This document shows, one piece after another, positions 17,525-25,976 of a DNA stretch of 32,252 nucleotides. Both the position numbers and the translations under genes were made by a program. The notes beneath the pieces are model-generated. The model had not been told where the DNA came from. It did not search any database and was given only the letters and a program-made list of their open reading frames with translations. The stretch lies in assembly GCA_944391425.1 (NCBI GenBank), contig CALXTO010000016.1, forward strand, positions 1 through 32,252. Reading direction: 5' to 3'. This stretch comes from an uncultured Alphaproteobacteria bacterium. Lineage in GTDB: Bacteria; Pseudomonadota; Alphaproteobacteria; RF32; CAG-239. Position 1 is the stretch's first letter, and every line of letters starts with the position of its first letter.

Positions 17525-18988
17525 TTATTCACCGATTTTGGAATCGGGTGTAAGCTGTTTGCCGGTTTGAACGTAAGCATCAACGGCTTTGGCAGCCTTT
17601 TTGGACAAAGCGATGCAACCGGGGCCGGAAACGCAGCCACCCTCGCAGCACATAACTTCCAGCATGTTGTTTTCGCCTCCTTTGGTGGCGTAGCGCTTGA
17701 GCAGGCGGATGTTTTCTTTGGTCAGACCGTCAATTTTTTCGGGACGAATATCAAATTTGTCACCGACCAGGCTGGCAACCGCTCCGGCGACGCCGCCGGT
17801 AACCGGGAACTGACGTCCCTGAGCATGCGAGATTTTGCTGAAAGGCTCTTCTGGGCATTCGTCAACGTTAATGCCCGAAGCTACCAGAATTGCACCAAGT
17901 TCTTCAAAAGTAAGAACGTAATCGACATGCGGATCATATTCGGCCTCGGCGCGTTTGGCCAAGCAGGGACCTACGAATACGGAAACGCATTCAGGGCATT
18001 CCTGCTTAACCAGTTCGGCAGTGTAGTACATCGGCGTTTTAGTGTCGGAAACAAACGGGCGGATTTCGGGAATATGAACCTGAGCGGCGCGGAAGTAAGC
18101 CGGGCAGCATGATGTTGTCATAAATGGTTTGCCTTCTTCCATACGCTCGATAAATTCCGCGGCTTCTTTTTGGGTGGTAATATCGGCGCCGACGGCAACT
18201 TCGATGACTTCGTCAAAACCAACTTTTTTAAGCGCGCCGACCAAGCTGTTGATAGAACCCGGGAATTGTCCCAGAACGGCGGGAGCCAGCATGGCAACCA
18301 CTTTTTTGTCGGTTTCTTTAATCTGGCGCAGAACGTCAATCATCTGCGAGCGTTCGACAATGGCGCCGAAGGGGCAGGATGCCAGACATTTGCCGCAGGA
18401 AATGCATTTTTCGACGTCAATATGTTCACGTCCGCTTTCATCTTTGGTAATGGCACCGACGGGGCAGGCTTCTTCGCAGGGGACGGGGATTTTGACAATT
18501 GAATGATAGGGACATACCTCAAAACATTTGCCGCAGTTGACGCATTTGTCCGGATCAATATGGGCGCGCCCTTTGACGATGGAAATAGCTTCCTTGGGGC
18601 AGTTCAGCCGGCAGGGCTGCGCAAAACAGCCGCGACAGACTTCGGTAACCACATATTGCGATTTGACGCAGGCCGAACAGGCGATGTCAATGACCGAAAG
18701 CTTATTTTTGGGTGCTTCGGTACGTTTGAGAGCTTCTTCGCCGTATTCCCGAAGTGTTGTCAGTTCATCGGTTTCTTCCTCAGGGCAGTGGCCCAGACCG
18801 GCCATGCAACGGTATTTGAGAACGGCACGGTCTTTGTAAACGCAGCAGCGGCTGGGAACGGTTTCTTTGGGACGCAGGTCCAGCGGAATTCGGTCGGCGT
18901 TGGCAAATTTGTCATTAAGATAGCTTTCGGCAATTTTAATGAGTATTTTGGTACGCATGAGGTTGGCGTTGTTCTTAGGTATCAGCAT
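17525..18988 (-). CDS. [FeFe] hydrogenase, group-B-like
   Basis: [FeFe] hydrogenases interconvert protons and H2 at the H-cluster. The 487-residue product has an N-terminal part with scattered Cys (CC at 48-49, CxxxxxxC at 61-68, CSAC at 104-107), then CRGCFAQPCRLNCP (118-131) and two 4Fe-4S motifs at 149-159 and 195-205. The H-domain follows. Its three signatures are complete: L1 TSCCP at 292-296, L2 GPCLAKRAE at 340-348, and L3 CCEGGCVSGPG at 447-457. The four H-cluster ligands (C295, C342, C448, C452), the proton-transfer Cys (C294) and the L2 Glu (E348) are all present, so it is probably catalytic. GPC instead of MPC, the GPG ending and the extra Cys-rich N-terminus fit group B rather than group A. 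It is the last gene of the operon; no NuoF-type partner or HydEFG maturase is in the window. Physiological direction is unknown. Confidence 0.9.
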   Translation of the reverse strand: MLIPKNNANLMRTKILIKIAESYLNDKFANADRIPLDLRPKETVPSRCCVYKDRAVLKYRCMAGLGHCPEEETDELTTLREYGEEALKRTEAPKNKLSVIDIACSACVKSQYVVTEVCRGCFAQPCRLNCPKEAISIVKGRAHIDPDKCVNCGKCFEVCPYHSIVKIPVPCEEACPVGAITKDESGREHIDVEKCISCGKCLASCPFGAIVERSQMIDVLRQIKETDKKVVAMLAPAVLGQFPGSINSLVGALKKVGFDEVIEVAVGADITTQKEAAEFIERMEEGKPFMTTSCCPAYFRAAQVHIPEIRPFVSDTKTPMYYTAELVKQECPECVSVFVGPCLAKRAEAEYDPHVDYVLTFEELGAILVASGINVDECPEEPFSKISHAQGRQFPVTGGVAGAVASLVGDKFDIRPEKIDGLTKENIRLLKRYATKGGENNMLEVMCCEGGCVSGPGCIALSKKAAKAVDAYVQTGKQLTPDSKIGE

Positions 18989-19003
18989 TTACATAAAACT
19001 CCC

Positions 19004-19033
19004 GTTTGTTTTTATAAGCAAATAAAAACAAAC
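19004..19033 (-). repeat. 12-bp AU-rich inverted repeat between operon genes
   Basis: GTTTGTTTTTAT (19004-19015) and its exact inverse ATAAAAACAAAC (19022-19033) are separated by six bases, in the 58-base gap before the hydrogenase gene. In the mRNA this is a perfect 12-bp hairpin just ahead of the hydrogenase ribosome-binding region (GGGAG). It may set relative expression or mRNA stability; it lacks the GC-rich stem of a terminator. Confidence 0.65.
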
Positions 19034-19046
19034 TACTTTATCTATA

Positions 19047-19325
19047 TTATTCGTTATTGCATTCTTTTTTTATTTCTTCTCTGATTTTGGCGACAACCTT
19101 TTCGTAAGATGCCTGTTCAATCAGTTCGTCGTTAACAAAAACAAAAGGGCCGCGGTTGTATTTGTGCTCAATGTCTTTGCAGAGGTTCATGCAGCGTTCT
19201 TCGACAATTTCGATTTTGTCGGCAATGTCGTCGGGGGCGTTGAACTCCAAAGACTGGATCTGAGCGGAACCCATTACGAAACAAGATGTTCCGACACAAA
19301 TTCTTACTTTTATTTTATTTGCCAT
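19047..19325 (-). CDS. Thioredoxin-like [2Fe-2S] ferredoxin (NuoE C-terminal type)
   Basis: A 92-residue small electron carrier. Cys residues follow the thioredoxin-like ferredoxin pattern: VCVG-type RICVGTSCF (CxxxxC) near the N-terminus, then EERCMNLCKD (CxxxC) about 35 residues on, the four ligands of a [2Fe-2S] cluster as in NuoE/HydC subunits. The C-terminal half (GPFVFVNDELIEQASYEKV) gives the strand-helix end of the fold. It lacks the N-terminal helical bundle of full NuoE. An AAAGGA precedes the ATG. Position between the phosphatase and the hydrogenase suggests it serves as electron donor or acceptor, or as a redox input, for one of the hydrogenases (inference). Confidence 0.85.
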   Translation of the reverse strand: MANKIKVRICVGTSCFVMGSAQIQSLEFNAPDDIADKIEIVEERCMNLCKDIEHKYNRGPFVFVNDELIEQASYEKVVAKIREEIKKECNNE

Positions 19326-19339
19326 GGCATGGTCCTTTT

Positions 19340-20515
19340 CTAAATATATCTGACACTGGTTTCTTTTAGGTATTTTTCCTGCAGAATCCTGAAAATCTTT
19401 TTGACGATATTGCGGCGGATTTCCAGTTCCATCGGCAGGTTGGGGTCCTGATGGGCGATGTTGATCTTGGTACCGACGACAAAATCTATTTTGTCACTGT
19501 CCAAAAGCAGGCGCGTCAGGCGGGTTGCCCCGTTGTTTTTGTTTTCGTCGATGCCTTCTTTTAGCATACGATACACATCAGTCAAGGTTAAAATGCCTTC
19601 CGTGACCAAATCAATGCCTTCCATGATGGAACACATGGGGATTTTTTCGTCAAAGGAAGTCTTGTCAATTTCGCATTTCAGACAAAGTTCTCGTTCAATG
19701 ATATTAGCGGTGGTACCGCCGCAGATGGCAACTTTGCCGTCATAGTCGGCCGCCAGTTCGGCAAATTCCCGGTCGCGGCTTTCTTCAAAAGGAGGACCTG
19801 TTAAAACCAGAAGCTGTCGGGGTTTGCGAAAGTAGAGGACGACACAGCTGATGTCGTCGCCGGCATGTTTGCCAATCTCTTTTTCCAGCGCTTCGGCGAC
19901 AATGGCATGGGCCAGGTCGTAAGCCGAGATATGCGGGTTTTTGCGGATTTTTTCAAGAGCAAAATTAATACAGCCCTGCCGTTGCCAGCCCAAGGGATAT
20001 TTGGGGTTACCCAGTCCGGCCTGACTGACGCCGTCAGAAATGAGGATAATGCGGTCTTCCTCCTGATTGGTCAGCTGGGAAATATTGATGGTGCGATCTT
20101 TCCATTTTTCGGAATAAATTTCGCGATAGCGGACATTGACGGCTTTGTGGTCGCGAATCAGGATGAACGGCGGGTTGTCCATCTCAAAAATGCGGGTTTT
20201 GCCGTCCAACTCGGTATCTACAACCGAAAAAGTGGCGTAGCTGATTTTGCGAATCTGGCAAATAGGCAGAGCATCCATCATGATTTCCGAAGAATGCATT
20301 AATTCCATGTTGCTTTCTACAAATTTCATGGCCATGCGCGTGGTCATGGAGGACAGGATATTGGCTTTGACGCCGCTGCCGAGGCCGTCGGAAAGGATTG
20401 AGATGATGCGGCGTTCTTCGGGAATTTTTTTGGAATAAATCGTGTCGCCGAAACAGTCTTCGCCGAATTTCTGTTGTTGGGCTGTGCCGATTTCGATAAA
20501 AAGAGAATCGCTCAT
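19340..20515 (-). CDS. PP2C/SpoIIE-type serine phosphatase of the HydS locus
   Basis: A 391-residue metal-dependent protein phosphatase. The PP2C core covers about residues 1-230: ILSDGLGSGVKA (Asp43), ILISDGVSQAG (Asp161) and HAGDDISCVV (Asp220, Asp221) supply the metal-binding aspartates. MDNPPFILIR matches the central SpoIIE strand region. Residues 235-391 form an extra domain with LTGPPFEESRDREF, ICGGTTANIIERE and GIDLVTEGILTLTDVYRML, which I recall only from phosphatases beside sensory hydrogenases. It follows hydS after three bases, so both are coupled. Group C3 [FeFe]-hydrogenase loci are known for this pairing, in which the hydrogenase is thought to sense H2 and the phosphatase to carry the signal. 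Its target, and any partner kinase, is not in the window. Confidence 0.87.
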   Translation of the reverse strand: MSDSLFIEIGTAQQQKFGEDCFGDTIYSKKIPEERRIISILSDGLGSGVKANILSSMTTRMAMKFVESNMELMHSSEIMMDALPICQIRKISYATFSVVDTELDGKTRIFEMDNPPFILIRDHKAVNVRYREIYSEKWKDRTINISQLTNQEEDRIILISDGVSQAGLGNPKYPLGWQRQGCINFALEKIRKNPHISAYDLAHAIVAEALEKEIGKHAGDDISCVVLYFRKPRQLLVLTGPPFEESRDREFAELAADYDGKVAICGGTTANIIERELCLKCEIDKTSFDEKIPMCSIMEGIDLVTEGILTLTDVYRMLKEGIDENKNNGATRLTRLLLDSDKIDFVVGTKINIAHQDPNLPMELEIRRNIVKKIFRILQEKYLKETSVRYI

Positions 20516-20518
20516 CGG

Positions 20519-22303
20519 TCAATACTTTCGTTCGGTTGAATTGGTACGCACCTTGATGCCGCTGGCTTCGTTTTCGGCGCTGGAATAGTCTTTGGCGATG
20601 GAGCGCAGCAGGACTTCCGTTTCAGCCATGTGTTCGCCCAGCGTGCAGGCTATCTGCTGGACGGTGGCCAGATTTTTATGAATAACCTCACGGGCTTTTT
20701 CGGCAATCTGCTCTTTATGCATTTCAGCATTGGTCACATCTTCAATGATGCCGCCGACGCTTTGTTTTTTATCGATATTGAAAACGACAACATCAAACAT
20801 CCTGTCTTCATGGCGAACGTGTTCACGATGAATATCCTGCTCAAGTTCCAGAGAAGCGGAAAAAAGGTTGGTAAAGCTGATGAAGTCACGCAGGTTGGCT
20901 CCGTAAAGGTTGTTATAGTCGTAAATGTCGGCATGTTCCTCTTCGTTCCAAAATGCATCGCGGAACTCATCATTATATTCCATGATGTTGAGTTTGGCGT
21001 CGGCAATGACAATTGGTGAAGGGATGCAGCGGATGAGGGCGTTGGCTTTGCGTTGAGCCTGGTGTTTCATGTGGGAAACGCACATTTCCGGTTCAGCTTT
21101 ACCCAGAAGGAGAGCTTTGGCAAAATTGCGGCAGGTGTCATAACCGCAGCCGCCGCAGTTGAGTTCATCTTCCTGACTGTATTTGCCGATTTTGGCAAGC
21201 ATCTTTTTGATATCGCTTTCTTCAAATGTTTGAGCGGCGTCAACCGGATTAAGAGATTTGTAAGCCAGACCGATGTTATAACGCGGTTTACGGCTGCCGA
21301 TTTCGTCCGTGAAAACGGCGTTTTTCAGAATCTCAATGCGTTTTTTCAGGCCGGGGTCTTTATTGGAAGTGCAAGGGCCAGAAACACAGCCGCCGTAGCA
21401 GGAGAGACATTCAAGGAAGACCGGCCGGTCAAGCGAATCGGCATCAATGTTGTTCAGTTCGTCGGCAATGCTGTAAATGCCGGTTACCTGCGTCATGTAA
21501 ATGTCTTTAGATACATTATAAGGTTTGAGCGTTTCAATCATGCCGCCTTCGATAGGGTAGGCAACGCCGTCTTTGGCCGGTTCAATGGCAAAAACATCAA
21601 ATACGCCGGGTGAAAGTTCGGCCGGATTGATATTTTCGTCTTTAAGCCATTGCCGTAGGTCCGAAAAACTGAGCGCGATGCTCAACAGGTCCGGGTGGCG
21701 GTCGGCCTCAAGTTTTTTAGCAATGCAGGGGCCGATGAAAATCGTTTCGATTTGGGGACCGAAAGCATCTTTGAGCATGCGGCAGTGCGCCAGCAGCGGC
21801 GAGGCCACGCCGGTCAGACAAGATGCAAGTTCGGGAAGGTATTTTTCGACATATTCGACAACTGAAGGACAGGCTGTAGAGATAAACAGACGGTTTTCTT
21901 TGTTTTTGACGGCTTTTTCCAACAACTTTGCGGTTTGACAAGTTACTTCCTGAGCACCGAGAGCGGTTTCGCTGACTCCTTTGATGCCGAGGCGGCGGAT
22001 GGCCGCAATCATCTGCTCTTTGCTGTATTCCGGGAATTCGGTAATCCATGACGGCGCGAGGGAAACATAAATTTCCTTGTGCGACTGGACAAGAAATTTA
22101 GCGCGGGCAAGATCGTTGCGCGGCTGTTTGGCTTTGGCCGGGCAAACCCGGTAACAGGTGCCGCAGGCAATGCATAAATCAGGAATGATCATGGCCGAAC
22201 TGTCTTCAATTTTGATGGCTTTGACCGGGCAGCGCCGAACGCATTTATAGCAGTCCTGGCAGTCGGTTTTGACGGTATGCAGGGGATAGTCGCGGTTAGA
22301 CAT
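20519..22303 (-). CDS. hydS: Sensory [FeFe]-hydrogenase-like protein with PAS domain (HydS, group C)
   Basis: A 594-residue putative H2/redox sensor. Domains in order: two 4Fe-4S motifs (CQDCYKCVRRCP at 15-26, CIACGTCYRVCP at 44-55); H-domain at about 75-335; an FeS domain with CGGCGYDTC and a fourth Cys (383-408); a PAS domain at about 420-525; a helical C-terminus. H-cluster motifs are L1 STACP (142-146), L2 GPCIAKK (191-197) and L3 ECLSCYGGCVSGPC (298-311). The four ligands (C145, C193, C302, C306) are kept, but the proton-transfer Cys is Ala144. That Cys-to-Ala change, the PAS domain and the adjacent PP2C phosphatase are the hallmarks of HydS/group C3, which show low activity and are held to be sensors. 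It starts one base after the upstream ferredoxin gene, with GGAGA before the ATG. Unusual for an alphaproteobacterium. Confidence 0.9.
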   Translation of the reverse strand: MSNRDYPLHTVKTDCQDCYKCVRRCPVKAIKIEDSSAMIIPDLCIACGTCYRVCPAKAKQPRNDLARAKFLVQSHKEIYVSLAPSWITEFPEYSKEQMIAAIRRLGIKGVSETALGAQEVTCQTAKLLEKAVKNKENRLFISTACPSVVEYVEKYLPELASCLTGVASPLLAHCRMLKDAFGPQIETIFIGPCIAKKLEADRHPDLLSIALSFSDLRQWLKDENINPAELSPGVFDVFAIEPAKDGVAYPIEGGMIETLKPYNVSKDIYMTQVTGIYSIADELNNIDADSLDRPVFLECLSCYGGCVSGPCTSNKDPGLKKRIEILKNAVFTDEIGSRKPRYNIGLAYKSLNPVDAAQTFEESDIKKMLAKIGKYSQEDELNCGGCGYDTCRNFAKALLLGKAEPEMCVSHMKHQAQRKANALIRCIPSPIVIADAKLNIMEYNDEFRDAFWNEEEHADIYDYNNLYGANLRDFISFTNLFSASLELEQDIHREHVRHEDRMFDVVVFNIDKKQSVGGIIEDVTNAEMHKEQIAEKAREVIHKNLATVQQIACTLGEHMAETEVLLRSIAKDYSSAENEASGIKVRTNSTERKY

Positions 22304-22304
22304 T

Positions 22305-22556
22305 TTATTCTCCGGATTTTGCGAAATGTTTTTCTAGGATATCGTATAAGGTACCGCTGTCCATATTATTGTATTCAACATCGTCGATTGTTATGTTGGG
22401 ACCTTTGGAGCATTTGTCGCAACAGCGCAGGCCGGTTAATTCAATTTCGGCGTCGAGGTTGCGTTCGCTGATGAACTTTTGGATCAGTTGCAGGTTTTTT
22501 GAGTTGCCGCGGGCAAAGCAGGAACTGCCCATGCAAACTTTGATTGTCGATACCAT
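22305..22556 (-). CDS. Thioredoxin-like [2Fe-2S] ferredoxin, first gene of the hydrogenase operon
   Basis: An 83-residue paralogue-type small ferredoxin. The ligands are KVCMGSSCF (CxxxxC) at the N-terminus and GLRCCDKCSKGP (CxxxC, with one extra Cys) in the middle. PNITIDDVEYNNMDSGTLYDIL is the typical C-terminal strand and helix. It is only distantly similar to the ferredoxin at 19047-19325, so this looks like two separate carriers rather than a recent duplication. AAAGGAGAT lies ahead of ATG 22556, and the promoter at 22593-22621 gives a leader of about 30 bases. The same gene commonly precedes hydS in clostridial loci (from memory). A dedicated redox link to HydS is a reasonable inference. 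Confidence 0.85.
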   Translation of the reverse strand: MVSTIKVCMGSSCFARGNSKNLQLIQKFISERNLDAEIELTGLRCCDKCSKGPNITIDDVEYNNMDSGTLYDILEKHFAKSGE

Positions 22557-22651: not shown

Positions 22652-22712
22652 GGGCAAAATTTTTACCTTTGCGGAATGTTACATTTTAGTTAGGAAAAAT
22701 GCGGTAATTTTC

Positions 22713-22741
22713 TTGCTATCACCCTAAAGCGAGATTATGAT
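22713..22741 (+). promoter_or_regulatory. Promoter of the degenerate GGDEF/EAL pair
   Basis: TTGCTA (22713-22718) and TATGAT (22736-22741) with 17-base spacing, 33 bases before ATG 22775. It is divergent from the hydrogenase promoter within the same 218-base gap. Confidence 0.55.
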
Positions 22742-22774: not shown

Positions 22775-24052
22775 ATGGTTAAAGCAGGAAGATTTGCCGC
22801 AGAAAGGTATTTGCTGGATTCGTTAAACCGCATTGCAAAAAATCAGGCGGCTTATTCCGTGTTATATGTTAACGTTTCCCGTCTGAAACCCAAAAACAGA
22901 CATCCCGAATTCGTCAAAGTTATGGCGAGGCTGTTTGACGATCTGGTCGGTGCCGCGGACGGGACGCTTTTTGTGTTGAGCAACAGCGATTTTGCAATTT
23001 TGGGCAAGAACATTACGTCAACAACAGTTGAACGGGCCGTAAAAAAACTTCGCGCAGGGCTGGCCTCGGATCCGCTTCTGTTTGCCCAGGACGGTGAGGC
23101 GTTTACGCGTGTTTATACATTCCCTGAAGATTTTGTCGAACTTTACCGACATATTGAAGAACTGATGAACGATGAAACGCCCGTTGATTTGTCCGCGTAC
23201 AAATATCCGGTTGAAGCGGCGCAGATGGACGGGGTTCTTGAACATCTTAACAATATTAACATTGTTGAACTGGTCAAGCGCCAGAGCGTTATCCGTTTTG
23301 AGGGGGCAAATCGTTTTAAGACCCTGTTTCAGGAATTTTTTATTGCGGTTAAAGATCTGAGCAAAGCGTTTGACCGGAATATTGATCTGGTGGCAAACCG
23401 CTGGCTGTTTTTGTATCTGACCCAGACTTTGGACAAGAAAACGATTTCAGCTTTTGAGAATGCCGATATTGAAAACTGGCCTTCGCAAATCGGTTTGAAT
23501 TTAAATCTTTCGACCGTGCACACGCCTGAATTTTCGGATTTTGCAGCCGCTTTTTTGAAAGACGGGCGCAAAGTTGTCGCCGAAGTCCAGATTATGGACG
23601 TATTTAACAGTCTGAATTCTTATTTTGAAGTTCGGGATTTTCTGCGGCAGGACGGACATAAGATTCTGATTGACGGTACAAGTCCCGAAATGTTGCGGAT
23701 GCTTAATATTTCCCGTTTGGAACCGGATTTGATTAAGATCTTTTGGGATCCAATGATGGCGCTTGAAGAAAACAACCAAGGGCTTAAGGAGATTATCAGC
23801 GGTTTTGGTGCCGAGAGGGTTATTTTGGCCAAATGTACGGAAGAGAGCGCCGTCCGCTGGGGCGTAAATTACGGCATCCGCTCTTTTCAGGGGCCGTATA
23901 TCGATTATCTGGAAACAGCTCTCATCCGCACGCAGTGTCCGGACGGCAAAATCTGCAGTGCGGCTGACTGCCTGAAACGTAGGCGCCTGTTGTCTGGCGC
24001 TTTTAAAAGCGGGTGTCGGCATAGGGAATTTTTGGAAAAGATACTGGGATAA
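22775..24052 (+). CDS. Degenerate GGDEF-EAL-like protein, paralogue 1
   Basis: A 425-residue soluble protein. The N-terminal part (about 25-135) resembles a decayed GGDEF domain: the strand-turn LFVLSNSDFAILGK matches RxGGDEFaIL, with SNSDF in place of GGDEF. From about residue 165 an EAL-like domain follows. NLNLS (N244), AEVQ (E270), a lone Asp in LIDG (D300), LIKIFW (K321) and FQGPYI (Q372) line up with EAL ligands. But EAL itself is EFF (187-189), the DDFG pair is reduced, and the late Glu of EGVE is replaced (LAKCTE). So c-di-GMP synthesis or hydrolysis is unlikely, while ligand binding or protein interaction is possible. The C-terminal tail has four Cys (388, 394, 399, 414). The ribosome-binding site is weak. 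It is followed after six bases by its paralogue. Confidence 0.72.
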   Translation: MVKAGRFAAERYLLDSLNRIAKNQAAYSVLYVNVSRLKPKNRHPEFVKVMARLFDDLVGAADGTLFVLSNSDFAILGKNITSTTVERAVKKLRAGLASDPLLFAQDGEAFTRVYTFPEDFVELYRHIEELMNDETPVDLSAYKYPVEAAQMDGVLEHLNNINIVELVKRQSVIRFEGANRFKTLFQEFFIAVKDLSKAFDRNIDLVANRWLFLYLTQTLDKKTISAFENADIENWPSQIGLNLNLSTVHTPEFSDFAAAFLKDGRKVVAEVQIMDVFNSLNSYFEVRDFLRQDGHKILIDGTSPEMLRMLNISRLEPDLIKIFWDPMMALEENNQGLKEIISGFGAERVILAKCTEESAVRWGVNYGIRSFQGPYIDYLETALIRTQCPDGKICSAADCLKRRRLLSGAFKSGCRHREFLEKILG

Positions 24053-24058
24053 TAAAGG

Positions 24059-25327
24059 ATGGGAATTTTGTTTGCACAAAAAACAGAAGGAAAAATCGTC
24101 CGCCGGGATGCAATCATTTTTGATTATCTGCGCAAGCTTGACGTATCGATCGGGAATTACGGCGCCTTGTATTTATGTGTTCATAAGTTGCAGGGGCAGA
24201 ATCTGCGCAGTGCGGACAGACAGGCTCTGAATGATACGTTCACCAATCTTTCCGAGGCTGCCAGGGCCGAGTTATTTGTTCTGCCGAATGAAGATATGAT
24301 TGTTATTTTTAACAAGGCCTGTCGTGATGAAATTTTAGCTTGTTTGGTAAAAATCCGTTTTTTGCTGCATGACGATCCTTTGATAAAAAATGCCGAAGAT
24401 TTGGAAGCTATCGGTTTTGCCAGAGTTTATGATCTGGGATCTGAAAGTCCGGCGTTCCATGATGCGGTTAAAACGGCAATGAAGTCTTCCGTTACATTTT
24501 CAAGGGAAAAAGCGGAAGATAAAAGCCATGTTTTGCCGCTTAATTATGGCAACGGACGCAAGGCTAAAAAAGAACTGACAACAGATATGCTGGCCAAAGT
24601 GCAAAAGATTTTGTCCGTAGCGGATTTCTCCAGTTTTATCCGTCGGCAGTCGGTTTGCGCCATCATCGGCAAAGCTGCGCCGCAAAGGGTTTTTGAGGAA
24701 GTGTATGTCGCTATTCCGGATTTGCGCGATATGCTGCTGCCGGATGTCGATCTGACGGCGAATCCCTGGCTGTTTTTGTCTTTGAGCGAAACGCTCGATA
24801 AACGGGTTTTGGAAACAATAAGCCGTCATGACGATGGTTCTTTGCTTGGCAATTTCAGTATTAATATTAATGTTTCAACAATATTGTCTGATGAGTTCTT
24901 GGCTTTTGACGACAATATCAATGTTTCAATGCGCTCAAGCATTATTTTGGAACTGCAGCTGGTGGATATTTTCAGCGACATCAAGTCGTTTATTCTGGCT
25001 AAGACTTTTGCTCAGGCACGTGGTTACAAGGTTTGTATCGACGGGATTACGGTAGATAAGCTGAAATATTTGAACCGGGCCAATCTGGATTGCGATCTCA
25101 TAAAAATTATCTGGCATCCGAGCTTTTTGGACGTCATTCATGAAGACAAACATTTTATGGATTATGTGAATAAAGCCGAACGCGCCAAAATGATTATCTG
25201 CCGGATTGATGATCCACAGGCGGTCGAAGTCGGAAATTCGCTGGGAATAAACCTTTATCAGGGGCGTTATGTGCAGAGGCTACTTAACGGCCAGCCCAGA
25301 AAGACGGTTTTTGCGGCCAGACGCTGA
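24059..25327 (+). CDS. Degenerate GGDEF-EAL-like protein, paralogue 2
   Basis: A 422-residue relative of the preceding protein. The two share RRQSV / KRQSV, (L)TANPWLFLSLSETLDKR versus VANRWLFLYLTQTLDKK, NINVST / NLNLST, LIKIIW / LIKIFW and YQGRYV / FQGPYI. The GGDEF position reads PNEDM, the EAL position EVY (in VFEEVYVAI), the EGVE Glu is missing (IICRIDD), and the DDFG pair is reduced to CIDG. It lacks the Cys-rich tail of paralogue 1. The tandem arrangement points to an old duplication with strong divergence. It ends at a good terminator (25332-25360). The pair is probably a regulatory, non-enzymatic unit; a link to the hydrogenase operon rests only on the shared promoter region. Confidence 0.7.
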   Translation: MGILFAQKTEGKIVRRDAIIFDYLRKLDVSIGNYGALYLCVHKLQGQNLRSADRQALNDTFTNLSEAARAELFVLPNEDMIVIFNKACRDEILACLVKIRFLLHDDPLIKNAEDLEAIGFARVYDLGSESPAFHDAVKTAMKSSVTFSREKAEDKSHVLPLNYGNGRKAKKELTTDMLAKVQKILSVADFSSFIRRQSVCAIIGKAAPQRVFEEVYVAIPDLRDMLLPDVDLTANPWLFLSLSETLDKRVLETISRHDDGSLLGNFSININVSTILSDEFLAFDDNINVSMRSSIILELQLVDIFSDIKSFILAKTFAQARGYKVCIDGITVDKLKYLNRANLDCDLIKIIWHPSFLDVIHEDKHFMDYVNKAERAKMIICRIDDPQAVEVGNSLGINLYQGRYVQRLLNGQPRKTVFAARR

Positions 25328-25718: not shown

Positions 25719-25976
25719 ATGAGAGCTGTTTTGTTGGTTATGGTTCTATTGCCGTGGACGATTGCAGATGCCGCCGCAAATTGTTATTTGATCCGGAATC
25801 AGGATGCTCAAAACGAGTGTCTGGCAGAAAGAGAGGGGAACAGCCTATATTGTCACCAAATTCGAGATGATGACCAAAGAAATTATTGTTTGGCCAGAGT
25901 TGACGGCAATTCTTTGTATTGCTATCAGATTTCAGATGAAGATTTGAAGAATCGTTGCTTAGCTTTAACTGATTAA
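25719..25976 (+). CDS. Secreted small protein with three 23-residue Cys repeats
   Basis: An 85-residue protein with a Sec signal peptide (MRAVLLVMVLLPWTIADAAA, cleavage about residue 20). The mature part consists of three units of the form C-x11-C-x10: Cys at 22/34, 45/57 and 68/80, exactly 23 residues apart. Each unit reads like CYxIxDxDxxNxCLA, with linkers GNSLY before units 2 and 3. The even Cys count and export suggest one disulfide per unit, making stacked helical hairpins. AAGGGA lies ahead of ATG 25719, and a poor promoter (TTGATT-17-TAATGT) begins at about 25655. I do not recognise a named family. The gene stands alone; nothing nearby indicates its job. Confidence 0.72.
   Translation: MRAVLLVMVLLPWTIADAAANCYLIRNQDAQNECLAEREGNSLYCHQIRDDDQRNYCLARVDGNSLYCYQISDEDLKNRCLALTD

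Follow-up and report, generated by a model that had tools for sequence, protein, structure and literature searches.

What keeps two neighbouring genes in a genome when both encode GGDEF-EAL-like proteins that appear to have lost the residues for catalysis? The genes lie in a 32,252-nucleotide stretch of DNA (the window) from an uncultured alphaproteobacterium, next to a divergently transcribed hydrogenase operon. A sequence-only reading had described them as tandem paralogues with dead, decayed domains and a new binding role, possibly co-regulated with the hydrogenase; the observation mostly holds, but the hydrogenase link does not. We conclude that the pair is most likely a regulatory sensor pair rather than a pair of enzymes. 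Our preferred, still tentative account, to which we give somewhat less than an even chance, is of an autonomous pair of pseudo-enzymes in which EALb would be a dinucleotide sensor and EALa its partner, together regulating an envelope process.

Fold and pocket of the two proteins

The two paralogous open reading frames are present as claimed, on the forward strand and separated by 6 nt. The pair and its features are as follows.

22712..22741, +: predicted sigma70-type promoter of the pair, a consensus-like element, CTTGCT-N18-TATGAT
22775..24052, +: EALa, apparently catalytically dead GGDEF-EAL protein, 425 aa (open reading frame, profile search, AlphaFold model)
22775..23179, +: EALa degenerate GGDEF-like domain, about residues 1-135, motif SNSDF (VIA alignment to PA0861; boundaries approximate)
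23210..23995, +: EALa EAL-like domain, about residues 146-407 (VIA match to RbdA EAL; boundaries approximate)
23936..24016, +: EALa C-terminal Cys4 motif, C388-x5-C394-x4-C399-x14-C414, candidate metal or Fe-S site
24059..25327, +: EALb, apparently catalytically dead GGDEF-EAL protein, 422 aa (open reading frame, profile search, AlphaFold model)
24104..24508, +: EALb degenerate GGDEF-like domain, about residues 16-150, motif PNEDM (VIA and Foldseek alignments to LapD; boundaries approximate)
24575..25279, +: EALb EAL-like domain, about residues 173-407 (VIA match to LapD EAL and residue conservation)
EALb pocket residues: Q197, E214, N269, N271, E298, D303, D328, K349, R382 and Q401

The Pfam EAL (PF00563) scores of EALa (21.5 bits) and EALb (30.4 bits) both fall under the gathering cut-off of 31.3, a value that EALb reached exactly in a search of its own genome, and the same Pfam search of the two proteins gave no GGDEF match. 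Searching the PDB with family profiles returned nothing for EALb and only marginal EAL matches for EALa. AlphaFold (AF2) models built from 78-sequence alignments have mean pLDDT values of 85.8 (EALa) and 83.3 (EALb), and in Foldseek both match the whole GGDEF-EAL structures PaMorA, LapD and PA0861 with E ~1e-11. The best structural match of EALb is LapD, with a VIA-align Z of 17.7 over the whole chain and 17.6 over the EAL domain alone (rmsd 3.0, 211 residues); the EAL domain of FimX gives Z 17.0. EALa aligns with the GGDEF-EAL module of PA0861 over residues 1-408 (Z 16.9) and with the EAL domain of RbdA over 227 residues (Z 16.7, rmsd 3.1), both by VIA-align. The rmsd of the whole-chain alignments is high, presumably because domain orientations differ. 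Structure prediction, proposed earlier as a check, thus returns GGDEF-EAL tandems rather than unlike folds, with Foldseek and VIA matches extending over both domains of each model, and an arrangement of a GGDEF-like and then an EAL-like domain in one chain is well supported by the predicted structures.

Residue counts over 78 EALa and 78 EALb sequences (156 in all) define a pocket that has been remodelled. Seven canonical EAL residues are invariant or nearly so in both proteins (72-78 of 78, the lowest count being that of the EALa Asn, 72/78): the Gln of YQPIV, the Glu of EAL, the Asn of NxS, the Glu of ExTE, the first Asp of DDFG, the Lys of KxD and the last Gln. The EAL motif and the DDFG pair had been reported as lost, which is half correct. 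The A-L and the Arg of EALLR are indeed gone, but the catalytic Glu (E187 in EALa, E214 in EALb) is invariant in 78 of 78 sequences of each family; likewise, the second Asp of DDFG is replaced, by Gly in 77 of 78 EALb sequences and by Gly, Ala, Ser, Glu or Asn in EALa, but the first (D300 and D328) is present in every sequence. The EALLR Arg has become Ala or Ser (Gly once), so that ExLxR reads ExFxA in EALa and ExYxA in EALb and has its Arg in none of the 156 sequences, and Ile or Phe usually stands in for the KxD Asp. The reported loss of the EGVE Glu stands, with Lys or Arg in its place in 77/78 EALa sequences and Arg in 75/78 EALb sequences. SNSDF and PNEDM replace GGDEF exactly as described, leaving neither protein with the diguanylate cyclase signature GG(D/E)EF, and inspection of the I-site position found no RxxD in either.

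In EAL enzymes the second DDFG Asp, the KxD Asp and the EGVE Glu are required for two-metal catalysis. With the set of an active EAL phosphodiesterase (EAL, DDFG, KxD and EGVE) incomplete in both families, EALa and EALb look catalytically dead, and the replaced motifs together with the models support the earlier description of them as dead GGDEF-EAL paralogues. To call the domains decayed, however, was wrong. Kept and replaced positions alike are strictly conserved, and dN/dS is 0.09-0.21, indicating purifying selection, in the comparisons with unsaturated dS. A remodelled pocket under strict conservation, in which the lost residues are replaced in a fixed way, is well supported. A binding or regulatory role appears most likely for both paralogues. 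The Cys4 motif of EALa is nearly all-or-none (four Cys in 71 of 78 sequences, three in one and none in six), and EALb has no such tail.

Known relatives and the c-di-GMP circuit

LapD sits in the membrane and has its output domain in the periplasm, and TipF is an alphaproteobacterial EAL-like protein that binds c-di-GMP and is flagellar. An aligned protein that we take to be TipF-like (L042:3799-5058) has the same Gln, Glu, Asn, Glu, first Asp, Lys and Gln as the pair, but it keeps the EALLR Arg, carries an N-terminal hydrophobic segment and has no GGDEF-like domain. The ExLxR motif is described as decisive for c-di-GMP binding by inactive EAL domains (PMC10333796), and by this motif neither EALa nor EALb is a receptor of the LapD/FimX type. 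LapD shares the tandem fold and has two catalytically dead domains, but retains the ExLxR Arg (PMC10333796) that EALa and EALb have lost; the latter also have no obvious membrane segment and occur as paired paralogues. FimX resembles them as a cytoplasmic dead GGDEF-EAL module and a strong structural match, but has REC-PAS domains and ExLxR and works with PilZ (PMC10333796), which is not detectable in the window's own genome. RgsP of Sinorhizobium, another alphaproteobacterial GGDEF-EAL protein, is tied to peptidoglycan growth through a function that does not require c-di-GMP; it is a precedent for role only, as it has an active EAL domain and a 7TM receptor part (PMC6107284).

The window's own genome encodes one canonical diguanylate cyclase (with GGEEF and RxxD) and one HD-GYP protein (with HHE and GYP), and searches of it gave no PilZ match and no EAL protein besides the pair. 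This amounts to a near-minimal signalling circuit, for which a lineage that has lost the cyclase provides a natural control. Three more degenerate GGDEF proteins are encoded in the same genome (L004, L005 and L006, on contigs C35, C10 and C14); matches of similar score recur in congeners.

The canonical cyclase is found in 31 of the 34 genomes of the genus, and all 45 further pair- or EALb-bearing genomes checked have a cyclase. The canonical enzyme is missing from G004 and G017, each rated 100% complete. The HD-GYP protein of G004 (L168, G004:C10:72300-74400) has lost HHE and GYP with its frame still open, and G017 has no HD-GYP protein; a GGDEF-EAL match in G017 was rejected as a cyclase, its motifs being degenerate, and its contig looks foreign. 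G004 and G017 are mutually closest by EALb identity, and in both EALb residue R382 has become Asn, with further changes in G004 (N271S) and G017 (C381Y and D384E). The EALa pocket is intact in both genomes (in the assembly, the G017 gene is frameshifted near codon 38). Thus 4 of the 13 changes in the EALb pocket, and none of the eight in the EALa pocket, fall in this clade, which accounts for 3.3% of the total branch length (binomial P ~6e-4 for EALb, post hoc). Because the correlation reflects one evolutionary event and was noticed before being tested, we treat it as a lead, not proof. That the EALb pocket changes with cyclase loss and the EALa pocket does not hints that EALb may sense c-di-GMP or a product.

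A nucleotide-free role of the CsrD or YdiV kind stays close behind this reading, because the missing ExLxR Arg is the main argument against c-di-GMP binding. Such pseudo-enzymes would use the EAL surface to bind partner proteins (or RNA), with the pocket structural or holding one metal; we consider this possible, at roughly the level of a serious minority view. CsrD is a dead GGDEF-EAL regulator that need not bind c-di-GMP, the E. coli protein being listed as a non-binder (PMC10333796), and EALb has a weak NCBIfam match to it. That match is marginal, at 14.6 bits (cut-off 663) and E 0.007, which leaves EALb outside the CsrD family, and CsrD differs in having membrane and HAMP parts. The pair is also still present in G004, which has no cyclase, so part of its function may be independent of c-di-GMP. 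Against a nucleotide-free role, seven conserved polar pocket residues and a Glu-to-Arg/Lys exchange seem more than a scaffold needs, and it is where the cyclase is lost that the EALb pocket relaxes.

A residual or altered enzyme, in which the Glu-Asn-Glu-Asp set would hold one metal and another (di)nucleotide or phosphodiester would be hydrolysed, is improbable. Both paralogues retain the Glu, Asn, Glu and first Asp of the canonical site, but all three of the other catalytic residues named above are replaced, the EGVE Glu by a positive charge.

Age, distribution and neighbours of the pair

EALa and EALb share 27% identity. On a quick tree, whose deepest split is weakly supported, two label changes (the fewest possible; shuffled mean 21.7) separate EALa, EALb and a group of b-like single genes. 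A single old duplication, before Rhodospirillales diversified, would account for the pair, and its age is well supported by these sequences; the pair is neither recent nor decaying. The pair or pieces of it occur in 32 of the 34 genomes of the window's genus (its own genome counted), the exceptions being G022 and G014, both of which are also without rodA. For G022, read contig by contig over ~1.47 Mb, we rejected the idea that the pair and the rod-shape operon were lost together; metK, ddl, miaA, mnmA and trmB are missing from the same block, so an assembly gap is the most likely cause.

Outside the genus, the pair is found in Rhodospirillales such as Caenispirillum, Telmatospirillum and Rhodospirillaceae LM-1, and relatives of the family occur in 51 of 142 alphaproteobacterial genomes sampled evenly across the class; matches on Azospirillum plasmids span the EAL half only. 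In G048 and G049 the b-like single genes have a response regulator carrying a Fis-type helix-turn-helix nearby, and the one in G049 adjoins a histidine kinase. Our literature searches found no paper describing the EALa/EALb family, which, with relatives this widespread, suggests a conserved regulator that seems uncharacterised.

In the window, a 218-nt gap does separate EALa from the divergent [2Fe-2S]/hydrogenase genes, as noted earlier, and this is what had suggested co-regulation. A survey of co-occurrence argues otherwise. Four congeners (G006, G008, G026 and G028, the last with the pair in pieces in a fragmented assembly) have the pair and lack both HydS and the HydB1-type hydrogenase of the cassette, the very finding that the earlier reading had named as refuting its proposal. 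In ~10 other genomes HydS is on a separate contig from the pair. Across 80 loci (L055-L134), EALa is directly preceded by a gene for a hybrid histidine kinase in 26, by rodA in 10 (with a gap of about 60-100 nt) and by divergent hydrogenase genes in 22, so that linkage to the hydrogenase is not conserved. Of 60 gut-clade sequences (the window's own among them), 41 carry the promoter-like element upstream of EALa, against a mean of 0.6 in mononucleotide shuffles; it is also there where rodA, not the hydrogenase, is upstream. Because hydrogenase-less genomes keep the pair, its neighbours vary and it has its own promoter-like element, it behaves as its own unit, and its independence of the hydrogenase is well supported. 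A regulator or accessory of the adjacent [FeFe]-hydrogenase/HydS cassette, for which divergent adjacency speaks in the window and in those 22 loci, is thus largely refuted and highly improbable, with rodA or a kinase gene replacing the gap elsewhere.

The cassette itself (17525-22556) varies in content, being HydB1 alone or HydB1-SpoIIE-HydS-[2Fe-2S]. Some species carry it between rodA and the pair, as if it had been inserted there; others have it at a different genomic position or lack it. Some of the kinases directly upstream of EALa are hybrid histidine kinases with a periplasmic SBP_bac_3 sensor (L061:2587-4638, L066:2544-4631 and L117:2376-4559); at the same place, L076 and L083 have shorter kinases without that sensor.

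A proposed role for the pair

Our preferred account begins with two genes that would form an autonomous unit transcribed from their own promoter, each encoding a protein in which degenerate GGDEF and EAL domains are joined, and both derived from one old duplication; their joint retention probably reflects a function as a pair. EALb would read c-di-GMP (or pGpG) from the cell's single diguanylate cyclase, using the Arg that replaces the EGVE Glu in its pocket. EALa would form a complex with it and bring a pocket of its own as well as a metal-binding or redox Cys4 site. The altered ExLxR motif of both proteins and the persistence of the pair in cyclase-less G004 count against the c-di-GMP part of this account.

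As output, the pair may regulate a cell-envelope process, namely rod elongation in the gut clade and surface export in Rhodospirillaceae. In some gut-clade relatives mreCD-pbp2-rodA lies immediately upstream, and in the Rhodospirillaceae examined an ABC-2 ATPase and permease lie downstream of the pair, with a metallophosphatase and an epimerase divergent from it. As these neighbours differ between lineages, the envelope link is only circumstantial, and we do not claim co-transcription with rodA because the 58-93 nt gap between rodA and EALa holds a promoter-like element. Control might come from a two-component sensor, for which the hybrid histidine kinases upstream in 26 loci are a point in favour.

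A bolder version of this account, which we judge unlikely, is that Rhodospirillales and gut alphaproteobacteria have a second-messenger receptor of a new class, formed by a heteromeric pair of dead GGDEF-EAL proteins. EALb would then read c-di-GMP or pGpG through its Arg-for-EGVE-Glu pocket, not ExLxR, and, with the Cys4 site of EALa, dinucleotide and redox signals would jointly control envelope growth. How an EAL fold turns from enzyme into sensor can be tested clearly on pocket residues whose retention and replacement follow so strict a pattern.

Beyond the pair, the window also holds a small open reading frame (25719-25976, +) for an 85-aa protein with a signal-peptide-like start and repeated Cys-containing units of the form YC-x-x-I-x-D-x-D-x-x-N-x-C. 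A copy with 55% identity occupies the same place in L055.
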